NCBI GenBank assembly: GCA_023231475.1
Contig: JALJEE010000537.1
Span: 1-64,000 of the forward strand
DNA from: Seison nebaliae
Lineage: Eukaryota; Rotifera; Pararotatoria; Seisonacea; Seisonidae
Direction of reading: 5' to 3'
DNA: 64,000 nucleotides
The notes beneath the pieces are model-generated. The model was not told the origin of the DNA. It did no database searches and saw only the letters and a list, made by a program, of their open reading frames with translations. A program made the position numbers and the translations under genes. Of this stretch, positions 17,965-24,095 are shown piece after piece (position 1 is the first letter of the stretch; each line of letters begins with the position of its first letter).

Positions 17965-19647
<1,683 letters not shown>

Positions 19648-19723
19648 CGGATTTTATTCGTGTTGGAAATTGAGCGAAATAAAAACGAAATTTTTTATAA
19701 TTCAAATGAATTAGTTATTTGTT

Positions 19724-19961
19724 TTATTCCCGTATTGAATCCACTTCTGCATTGTCACCACTTTCTGATCCACTTGCATAAAATGTGTCCGTTTCTATCG
19801 GATCATCTTTCTTCGGTTCTGATGAGACCACCGATAAGTCTTTTCTCGATGTCTCTTCTACATCTTCCAATTCGTCATTGATATTGAATAAACTTGGAAA
19901 TCTCTTCCGAATCGAATTGTAATTTTCTAGAAATTCCGCTTTGTTACTCGACGAGAATTCT
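19724..19961 (-). pseudogene. Truncated 3'-terminal fragment of the Hsp70-like gene
   Basis: About 238 bp almost identical (about five differences seen) to the last exon of the Hsp70-like gene at 21712-21950. It keeps the acidic tail SGSESGDNAEVDSIRE and the GAATAAA stop/polyadenylation overlap. Homology stops abruptly at about 19961, inside the exon, and upstream frames close quickly. It is a broken copy left by duplication of the convergent U2AF2/Hsp70-like 3' junction. Confidence 0.85.
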
Positions 19962-21199
19962 CCATGGAATTATAAATTTTTTAAGAAAATTAAAAAATTT
20001 TTTTTTGAAAACAATCCATAAGTAAGAAACTCTATATTTGTCTATTCTTTAATAACAAATAATGGAAAGAAATTAACATTCGCTCATTGCAAATCTTTTT
20101 TTTTAAAATCCCAATATGGGCGATTGCATATTTCCCAGATGGATAATAGGATGAGAATGGATATAAGAAAAGTAATTAGAATATTTATATTTAAACATTT
20201 TCTTCTGTAAACATAAGTTTCCACACAGTATTTTAAATTTCCACAGATCAATATGATGGCTTCATTTTTATTCTTTCTTTTAACTCTCATAACCTCATTG
20301 TTCTACATTCCCTAATACTTTACTTCACCATCATTTACTTCTTCTAACATTTTTTACTTATTCTTCGTTTTACTTATCAAAATCTTTTTCCTAAAAAAAT
20401 AAGAACAGTTTACGTATGAGATACTACGTATTATGGTAGTAATACTAGCACTGTTAAGATAGATAAATAGTCTGTTATATCTGAGCATTAACAGATGATT
20501 CAATGGTCAAACGAACATTTAAGTTTACTGATAGTTAAGTTTTTTTCGTAGTTAATGTTAAGTAATCTTTTTTCAAAGTTTATTTTCTTATATTTTTATT
20601 CTCCTTTTATTTATTTACGAACTACTTTCAACAAAATTCTTCTGGTGACTCTCGATTGATCTTTTTTTATCGTTATAAATTCAAAATTATCTCCTCCATT
20701 CCAGACAACCAAAAGATGTCTAACATTCTTCGGTTTTTATGACATTGTATTCGGTAGTGTATTCTTTGACGATTTTATGGAAACAACGATTTTTTTTCCA
20801 TACGTTCTCGTCAACTTCCATGTAATTTGACTGATGTTCAGATTCCGGAGAATATATGTTCTTCATTTAATTTTTGAATTAATTCATTTCTGATGATAAT
20901 GTATCCAATTTATCATTCAATTACAAGAAGTTGTTTCTTGATCTCGACCTGTTCATTTTCCATCGTTTTTGATTTGCTCTACGTTTATTTTTACCGTGTC
21001 ACGTTTTATCGTAGAAGAAGATTCCAAATTTGGAAGAGTAACGTCATTCCCTATCTCATTCTCTTAAGTACCAGAAAGTAATTTTTGCAACTGTATTGCA
21101 ACGATTGAACTAATAGATTTGCAAATCGAATCGTTGTTTTTTCATTACTCATCTTTTTTTTGTTTTTTAAGAAAAATTTTCTTTTGTCTTTTGTCGAAG
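19962..21199. other. 1.2-kb spacer between duplicate copies
   Basis: Not similar to the flanking duplicate. On the minus strand two adjacent open pieces look coding. An ATG-started 48-codon frame at 20866-20720 has SPESEHQSNYMEVDENVWKK. A second at about 20735-20621 reads VRHLLVVWNGGDNFEFITI to a stop in a different frame. Together they resemble a frameshifted or intron-split gene relic of unknown family. A short Leu/Ile-rich minus frame at 20290-20084 could encode a membrane helix, but I cannot support it as a gene. Confidence 0.35.
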
Positions 21200-21635
21200 A
21201 TGGGAAGGAAACGATTAATTGATGAGAGTGAAATCATGAAAAATGAGACGAAAACGAGAATTCTTTGTCTTTATAATATAGTGACGTCGAATGAACTTGA
21301 GAATGATGAAGAGTTTGAAGGTTTTTTTTCCTTCAAAAATTGAATTTTTAAATTATAAAATTCAATTTCAAATATCAGAAATTAAAGAAGATATTGAAGA
21401 TGAATGTATGAAATTTGGAGAGGTCATTCAAGTGGTGATTCCACGTCCAGAACATGACAGAATTCCAACGAATATTCTTAATGATTGTCGAATTTATGTG
21501 GAATTCAAAACGGAGGAAGATAGTTATGCTGCACAACAAGGATTGTCTGGAAGACAATTCAATGACAATATCGTTATCATTCAATATTTTTCGGTGGAGA
21601 AATTCAAAGAAGAAATTTGTCAACAAAACTCTTAA
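21200..21635 (+). CDS. Standalone UHM-domain protein derived from U2AF2
   Basis: Duplicate of the U2AF2 3' half with an intact frame. Exons 21200-21320 and 21379-21635 (58-nt intron) give 125 aa, starting MGRKRLIDESEIMK. It consists only of the U2AF homology motif domain, which in U2AF65 grips Trp-containing ligand motifs of SF1 and SF3B1. The acidic helix (ENDEEFEEI) and the RXF motif (GRQF) are kept. About a fifth of residues differ from U2AF65. The ATG is new relative to U2AF2, and a pyrimidine-rich TTTTGTCGAAG acceptor ends directly before it, so it could be made as its own mRNA. A competitor or modulator of U2AF/SF1 binding is the obvious guess. It may also be a young, unexpressed copy. 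Confidence 0.72.
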
Positions 21636-21950
21636 CGGATTTTATTCGTGTTGGAAATTGAGCGAAATAAAAACGAAATTTTTTATAATTCAAATGAATT
21701 AGTTATTTGTTTTATTCCCGTATTGAATCCGCTTCTGCATTGTCACCACTTTCTGATCCACTTGCATAAAACGTGTCCGTTTCTATCGGATCATCTTTCT
21801 CCGGTTCTGATGAGACCACCGATAAGTCTTTTCTTGATGTCTCTTCTACATCTTCCAATTCGTCATTGATATTGAATAAACTTGGAAATCTCTTCCGAAT
21901 CGAATTGTAATTTTCTAGAAATTCCGCTTTATTACTCGACGAGAATTCTC
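21205..21950. repeat. Copy 2 of the ~750-bp direct duplication
   Basis: Matches 19213-19961. Its right end continues without a break into the full Hsp70-like gene, so this end is the ancestral Hsp70 side. Its left end begins inside the U2AF2 exon 5 match, so this copy lacks the rest of U2AF2. Confidence 0.92.
21711..21716 (-). terminator. Polyadenylation signal containing the stop codon
   Basis: The minus strand reads GAA TAA A, so the TAA stop of the Hsp70-like gene is inside AATAAA. The same arrangement is kept in the truncated copy near 19724. Confidence 0.5.
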
Positions 21951-24095
21951 GTAAGGGGAAAACTGATGGAAAAAAATTTTAAATTTTTTGAGAAAATTTA
22001 AAAATTTTTTTTTAAAATTTTTTGAGAAAAGAGAAAACTATGTTTCGGTTCCACATGTAAATCGATGAGATTTATGTCGACACCATCACTAAATGTTGCT
22101 TTCATTTCGATCATTCCATTTTCGTTTAGTGTCAATACAATTTTGATGGGACTACCTCTCGGTATCATTTCGATCATGGAAATGAGACTGAAAGATAAAA
22201 TCGGTCGCTAATAATTAGAAATGAAAATAAAAAAAAAATAAATTAAAATAATTCAAATGGAATTAAACATTTTTTGCTGTCAACATATGTTTCCCGTCAT
22301 GAAGATTAATACGGAATGAATAAAAACCTCCATCTTTCATAAAAAGTGTTTGTGGAATAGTTATGGGTAGAACGGTATGTTCGTGAATGATGGGAAAAGA
22401 TAAATTATCCATCATAATATTCAATGGGAAGAAAGTTCGTTCTCCCAATAATTGAATAGGAAGATAATGTCGTCGTCCATAATTCGACATCTTCTTATCA
22501 TCTATCACTTCATCTTCTATCGCTTTTAAATATGCATGAATTGCTGTTCGTGATTTATGAAAATATTTAAATTCATATCATAAATCTTCTAACCACATCC
22601 ATACATAACGGTATGTGGCCATTCGGAATAATATTCCACATCAATTCCATCCAAAATCTCTTTCAATTTATTTCGAACGAATTCCAATTGAAATCCTCCA
22701 CCACACGCAACAATATGCTGATGTTTCGAAGAGAAATGTAAAATGAAAATTTTTGTAATAAAAAGAAAGATAATTGTTGGGAGAATATGATGGAAAACCG
22801 AGAAACTTTTAAGTGATGAATCGAATGTAGTTCACTTTTTTTCAAACAACTTTTTATTCCGTTCTCAATCTCATTAATGAGAGGAGCGAAAATTGTATCT
22901 AAAACCGGTTCAAATTGTTGAACAACTGTGCTATATCTAAAAAATATGAGATGTAAATGATTTAGGAAGATATTCTGATGATAATGATGATCTGATGGTT
23001 CCAATACCATACAAATGAATATAATTAACCTTTGTTCTAATGGGATGGATAATGCATGTTTGATGATATTCATCCGTTTTAATTGGAGTGATCTTGTTGA
23101 ACCGAAATTGTAACGAGTCTTCTTTAATTTGGGTAATTCGTTAAACATTTTATAATCATAAAATCTTCCTCCTAAATATCGAAATTATTTGATAAATAAT
23201 TTAAAATTTTAAAATAAAAATCTGATGATTTAATTAACCACAATTCCATCCAACATGTTCATGAATGATTTTCAATTTGCCATTCTCGTCAATTTCGAAT
23301 AGACAACACAAGAAATTCTTATCACTCAATTCTAATAATAAATTATATTGTGAATGGAATTTATACTAAAATTATTCAAATTATATTTCTAATTATTCGA
23401 ATTGAAATTTAAACTGCTGTTAGGAAATTGGAACTACGTCCATTCATTTGTAATTGCCAATAAATGAGATTGGCAGTGGTGGATGAAATTAAATTATAGG
23501 AAGTGAATTCTGCACCTTTCGCTCCATTGGCGAAACATTCACGTTGTCTCGAATTGAACCAAATTGGCACATTAATTGTGGCGATAATGTTAAGATTGTT
23601 CGTTTCAAAATAATCTTCAATTGCCTGACGAATTTGGAGGAAGAAAATCGCTAGAAGTATATCCATTTCGATGACGATTGCTCCCGTACTCTTTTTAATC
23701 GTCAACGAATAGTCGTTCGGTTTGGCGTTATTCAAAAACAAAAATTTATCTTCATTATTATGGAATGGTGCCGACCAATCGATATTGGCAATAATATCTT
23801 CAAACAAATCATAAAACTATTTAATTCATTAAAATCAATTAAAACTATGAAGTCGATAATCATAATGAGGAATCTTCCCAATCGATCGATGATTGAAAAG
23901 TAATGTAAAATAATTCGGAAGATCTTTCGTTTCCGATAATTGTTTACCTGCATGAACATCATGAATTATGGCATATGTCAATCGATAATCGGAATTAGTC
24001 GATTCTCGAATTATATGAATTTTTTCGTTAACGAACACACCGATCGACGTCTTATAATTACCGATATCGATTCCGGTAAAAACGGTTCGGCGCAT
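21712..24095 (-). CDS. Divergent Hsp70-family chaperone-like protein
   Basis: Multi-exon; first exon 24095-23846, second from about 23797, last from about 21963 to 21712; I estimate about 600 aa. ATPase-domain landmarks appear in order. These are FTGIDIGNYKTSIGV (phosphate-1 loop), ATINVPIWFNSRQRECF (connect-1 region), EHVGWNCGGRFYDYKM (phosphate-2 region) and HIVACGGGFQLEFVRNKL (adenosine loop). They are followed by YGCGAIHAYL. The substrate-binding beta region shows PRGSPIKIVLTLNENG, and the tail is acidic. The motifs are degenerate compared with canonical Hsp70, so ATPase activity is uncertain; HSPA14- or Hsp110-type relatives are possible. The stop lies inside AATAAA. It starts 79 bp after the SH2-SH3 gene stop, with no acceptor AG just before its ATG. 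Confidence 0.78.

Follow-up and report, generated by a model that had tools for sequence, protein, structure and literature searches.

Young partial gene duplicates that lie beside their parents are a known kind of locus, and the established proteins with a UHM, i.e., PUF60, SPF45, RBM39/CAPER, U2AF35, and Tat-SF1, bear further domains. According to the excerpted part of a published account (PMC7648758), a UHM has a helix A of higher acidity than that of a canonical RRM and an Arg-X-Phe motif in the loop that joins helix B to the last strand. In the marine epizoic rotifer Seison nebaliae, the end of U2AF2 is duplicated beside the original gene (Table 1). We consider a partial, mosaic, intact, and probably unselected U2AF2 duplicate to be the most likely reading of this locus, with a probability of roughly 0.58. 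A literature search for U2AF2 in combination with both pseudogene and partial duplication returned no paper.

In the window, that is, the whole 64-kb stretch of DNA that was analyzed, self-comparison with low-complexity filtering gave the U2AF2 block pair as the sole match at E ≤ 1e−6, a direct duplication of 19213–20010 and 21204–22017 with 90.7% identity over 818 columns. Ungapped match families start at 19207 in the first copy and at 21199 in the second, positions 19207–19212 of the first copy being covered by the ungapped family alone. The block holds the end of U2AF2 exon 5, the last intron, exon 6, the 3′UTR, and the 3′ end of a convergent Hsp70-like gene. Both self-comparison and alignment located the duplicate of the U2AF2 end where a preliminary description of the locus had put it; the picture of the duplication given there stands for the U2AF2 part, but overlooked the minus-strand 3′ end of the neighbor and the very uneven divergence. 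The inclusion of this 3′ end is as expected of a segmental event. The working 3′ end of the Hsp70-like gene appears to be the one in the second block copy; two of its ORFs, joined by hand, matched PF00012 at 7e−05 (21.7 bits vs. a cut-off of 20.6), and three ORFs taken singly gave no Pfam match at 1e−3. The orphan Hsp70-like 3′ end is the mirror-image counterpart of the UHM copy and might serve as a neutral yardstick.

Table 1. Positions of the features discussed, in window coordinates
Feature	Position	Strand	Remarks
Parent U2AF2, 467 aa, six exons	17965–19647	+	Stop 19645–19647
Parent U2AF2 exons	17965–17976, 18046–18626, 18670–18856, 18917–19039, 19085–19328, 19391–19647	+	
First block copy (U2AF2 3′ exons, 3′UTR, orphan antisense neighbor 3′ end)	19207–20010	+	
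Divergence break	19621		Maximum chi-square scan, 0/5000 permutations as extreme
Orphan 3′ end of Hsp70-like neighbor, beside parent U2AF2	19713–19962	−	Alignment and ORFs, by eye
Dispersed repeat relic between copies	20619–21160		10 further matches on 7 other contigs
Second block copy	21199–22017	+	
Copy exon A, with ATG 21200–21202	21200–21320	+	
Copy intron, 58 nt, GT..AG, phase 1	21321–21378	+	Parent equivalent 19329–19390
Copy exon B, stop 21633–21635, RXF motif GRQF	21379–21635	+	
AATAAA 3′ of copy	21666–21671	+	Parent equivalent at 19678
Convergent Hsp70-like gene	21712–24095	−	ORFs and weak Pfam match

The number of copies was searched for in the 36.0-Mb assembly (846 contigs), in which neither a third block copy nor a second U2AF2 locus was found. 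The nucleotide search returned both copies and one 67-bp match to the spacer repeat, while an assembly search with eight matches gave the two copies (four matches) and other RRM/UHM genes at 27–40% identity (four matches). No homology to U2AF2 (RRM1, RRM2, or the N-terminal region) was found 5′ of 21199, so the copy is not a full U2AF2 paralog. The genome has at least 141 RRM_1 matches (150 of 186 candidates scored). Inspected by eye, two C-terminal UHM-like frames (L016 on contig C367 and L017 on C655) resemble RBM39/CAPER and PUF60, and two U2AF35-like genes (L018 on C649 and L019 on C672) have a CCCH-UHM-CCCH arrangement; U2AF1 may be duplicated in Seison.

The spacer between the copies is 1.2 kb long and contains a dispersed repeat, a probable transposable element of unassigned class, whose borders were taken from the assembly search alone, as the pairwise repeat alignments were loose (permissive gaps), with the unrelated loci L020 and L021 scoring 122–180. 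The repeat matches on contigs C774 and C636 both stop at window position 21160. At one of the repeat loci (L003, among L003 and L005–L011), an ORF whose start falls in an A-rich leader where the repeat ends was seen by eye, as was a nearby reading that resembles reverse transcriptase.

The parent gene was modeled by spliced translation with GT..AG at every intron, and the model is unique among the four open border combinations listed in having canonical ends throughout. Its product is 44–51% identical to U2AF65/U2AF50 homologues (best 120 of 1608 matches). A near-identical Seison U2AF2 was found neither in these best 120 of 1608 matches (257–817 aa, top identity 51%) nor among all three matches of a second search at about 108–343 aa. 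The UHM copy of S. nebaliae thus has an entry in the protein database, and a near-identical full U2AF2 was not seen in the lists and length ranges searched.

As the preliminary description had read it, the copy has a complete frame and a working-looking intron: the spliced product is an intact frame of 125 aa with no stop, the intron keeps the parental position and phase together with its GT..AG ends, and the exons need no indel relative to the parent past the first few codons. The search for a disabling stop, a frameshift, or a lost splice site in the copy found none, so it does not have the marks of a pseudogene. The product matches the hypothetical protein SNEBB_007333 [Seison nebaliae] (P0121) at each of its 125 residues and is 78% identical to U2AF2 over the shared part; papers matching a search on SNEBB, judged by their listing, all concern other subjects. 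With its intact acceptor and matching phase, exon B of the copy could also be an alternative last exon of U2AF2: donor 19329 of exon 5 would be spliced to position 21378, the acceptor of the copy, to give a U2AF65 isoform with a variant UHM. This is highly improbable: the splice needs an intron of 2.05 kb, compared with 43–69 nt in the five U2AF2 introns, and the transcript must run past the parental AATAAA at 19678.

The start codon of the copy had been described as a new ATG. With an offset of 1992, however, it lines up in register with Met codon 19208–19210 inside the parent, therefore no new ATG is needed, and inheritance from this Met is the simplest reading, likely but not certain, as the 9 bases 3′ of the copy ATG align poorly with the parent (5 mismatches ungapped). 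In the 5′ direction, the first stop in frame is a TAA at 21065, with no further ATG in between. An acceptor-like pyrimidine tract had also been reported directly before the ATG, and a pyrimidine-rich stretch does exist (~21178–21195), but the 12 bases directly 5′ of the ATG (CTTTTGTCGAAG; the last of them GTCGAAG) end in AAG, while 5/5 U2AF2 introns end in CAG or TAG. A T-run further 5′ (~21153–21160) sits within the dispersed repeat. An acceptor ahead of the ATG, e.g., for trans-splicing, would be possible but is unsupported.

Divergence between the two block copies differs strongly by region, with identities of 88% in exon A, 97% in the intron, 90% in exon B, 100% in the 3′UTR (64/64), and 97% in the neighbor end, the region borders being accurate to within 3 bases. 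Coding exons differ at 40/374 sites and the 3′UTR at none. The break at 19621 separates a left part with 43/405 differing sites from a right part with 5/342, and suggests a gene-conversion boundary, from which we infer that the right part was converted later. Positive selection behind the exon-rich divergence was considered and rejected: synonymous sites are raised too in the left part (13/74), therefore the divergence is not due to selection on the protein, and a dS that is up together with dN on the left, along with the low count on the right, favors conversion. The copy intron differs from that of the parent by 2/58 changes (a count rechecked by eye) and two homopolymer indels, compared with the 13/74 at synonymous sites (Fisher p = 0.012). 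Its low divergence may reflect a conversion patch, splicing constraint in a working copy, or chance, and, within the diverged left part, is the one result that sits uneasily with the conversion picture.

A false duplicate could also have arisen during assembly, if diverged strains were pooled and the sequence of one was joined beside that of the other. Two lineages with 82% mitochondrial identity were indeed present in the S. nebaliae pool of Mauer et al. 2021, as stated in the excerpted part of that paper (PMC8351084), but the assembly used here (36.0 Mb, 846 contigs) is unlike both GA1 (99.0 Mb, 14,609 contigs) and GA2 (43.9 Mb, 3301 contigs) as given in the same excerpt. Such a chimera appears improbable on other grounds as well, namely the single U2AF2 locus found in the assembly, a window with 0 N, and a dN/dS that is rather high for an essential gene, while an identical 3′UTR next to exons with many differences is the reverse of what strain divergence would lead one to expect.

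The copy was predicted by AlphaFold2 (input of 22/123 proteins) to fold as a UHM, and hence to be RRM-like, with a pTM of 0.65 and a mean pLDDT of 72.5 in a model that leans on 21 homologues and does not address stability. The top five PDB matches of this model are U2AF2/U2AF65 UHM chains (target-normalized TM 0.86–0.89), and the solved sequences nearest to the copy are likewise U2AF65 UHMs, so that the structure prediction proposed in the preliminary description came out in agreement with it. The two features named there for ligand binding are retained in the alignment to human U2AF65: GRQF aligns to R452–F454, and the acidic helix A (DEEFEEIKEDIEDEC) keeps the equivalents of E397, D401, and E405. 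The copy therefore has the equivalents of all checked human residues (E397, D401, E405, R452, and F454), which we take to be ligand contacts. The genome encodes both SF1 (PF16275 match, with KKKRRRASRW) and SF3B1 (PF08920 match, with KKKTRWD and RFSRWN), whose motifs look ULM-like by eye and are candidate ligands for a free UHM.

With ligand genes present and contact residues kept, competition of the copy with U2AF2 for SF1/SF3B1 is possible. Transcription and splicing of the copy would then yield a protein of 125 aa that binds the ULMs of SF1/SF3B1, rivals U2AF2, and tunes 3′ splice-site recognition, an explanation with which the intact frame and splice sites, the database entry, and the predicted fold are consistent, as is an intron diverged less than synonymous sites if this reflects splicing constraint. 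We regard such a functional free UHM as possible but rather unlikely, since the ATG is not preceded by a canonical acceptor, no protein similar to the copy other than itself was found at E ≤ 0.001 and 69–219 aa (3 candidates scored), and selection was undetectable, as set out below. Still more doubtful is a specific form of this explanation, in which segmental duplication would have supplied the free UHM, an internal Met its start, and the repeat relic part of its leader, and the protein would naturally inhibit the contacts of U2AF2 with SF1/SF3B1 by competition, in an animal whose gene set is much reduced.

Between copy and parent, 28 nonsynonymous and 13 synonymous changes were counted (dN 0.10, dS 0.20, dN/dS 0.52; first two codons past the ATG excluded). 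Branch estimates of dN/dS, obtained with no close outgroup, put the copy at ~0.8 and the parent at ~0.3 with a wide error (even synonymous split, 5:2 polarization; a looser hand tally of 10:4 has an identical ratio), as expected of a freed copy beside a constrained gene. Compared with 119 of the 120 homologues (one without a VLCL/ILCL anchor was dropped), the copy alone departs at M26I, Y38F, P73L, V104I, and T107I (numbering omits the first Met), where the parent keeps residues conserved in 115–119/119 homologues; these five changes speak against a functional free UHM. At columns conserved to at least 90%, the parent alone departs at E39 and E43, and at five columns both depart, differently. 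In total, the copy departs at 29/58 and the parent at 26/58 such columns; the parent itself is thus unusual and departures from the animal consensus weigh less here, and the asymmetry of 5 vs. 2 is not significant (p = 0.45).

In a neutral simulation of 5000 runs each, 23%, 35%, and 48% stayed free of stops with 37, 27, and 18 substitutions, where 37 assigns all unpolarized changes to the copy and 27 and 18 are smaller loads chosen arbitrarily. Of the stop-free runs, 17%, 58%, and 93%, respectively, had UHM profile scores equal to or above that of the copy, with a profile that covered 102/124 positions and an inferred ancestor that carried the copy state at four positions (39, 43, 52, and 65), a list that differs from the polarization list. 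As the frame can survive and fit the profile in neutral runs, its integrity is weak evidence of function, and by both branch dN/dS and simulation the copy could not be distinguished from neutral drift. The copy scores 95.5 bits against the UHM profile and the parent 105.6, while Pfam RRM_1 is matched by the copy (22.8 bits vs. a cut-off of 20.7) and not by the parent fragment at 1e−3. The preliminary description had proposed a new standalone UHM splicing protein; sequence, frame, database entry, and predicted fold bear out that the duplicate of the U2AF65 C-terminus can encode a free UHM, but a new splicing protein is called into question by the changes at conserved columns, the lack of a signal distinct from drift, and the weakened arguments from start and acceptor.

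For the partial, probably unselected duplicate that we prefer, the following course may be proposed. A segmental tandem duplication would have doubled the 3′ ends at which U2AF2 and the Hsp70-like gene converge, with a repeat relic now lying between the two copies; gene conversion (or unequal exchange) would later have re-homogenized the right-hand 340 bp, leaving the UHM-coding part with its older divergence. The UHM frame of the copy would owe its integrity to its youth and shortness, no stop having arisen in it yet, and the copy, presumably devoid of function, is probably evolving with little or no constraint on its way to a pseudogene. Several observations weigh against this reading: the intact frame with no exon indel past the first codons, the SNEBB_007333 entry, the kept contact residues, the low intron divergence, the unusual parent, the non-significant 5 vs. 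2, and an RRM_1 cut-off passed by the copy where the parent fragment has no match.

Should the copy be expressed, it would rank as a natural protein of very recent origin that consists of a UHM alone, and one could learn from it directly, in vivo, whether SF1 or SF3B1 is titrated by such a lone domain. Should it not be, the locus would clearly illustrate how a drifting partial duplicate can have the look of a gene (frame, intron, motifs, and database entry) and how, within one block, noncoding sequence can end up less diverged than the coding part, here probably via gene conversion. The C-terminal UHM of U2AF2 (U2AF65/U2AF50), its direct parent, has the intron, RXF motif, and acidic helix in common with the copy, which lacks the N-terminal region, RRM1, and RRM2 and comprises just 125 aa. 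PUF60, SPF45, RBM39/CAPER, U2AF35, and Tat-SF1 share the UHM fold with the copy by sequence or structure match, but these are old families, whereas the Seison copy is a local duplicate. Young partial duplicates beside their parents resemble it in segmental origin, in relaxed dN/dS, and in a frame apparently intact by youth; what sets the Seison block apart from them is no more than its uneven divergence and the repeat relic that separates the copies.
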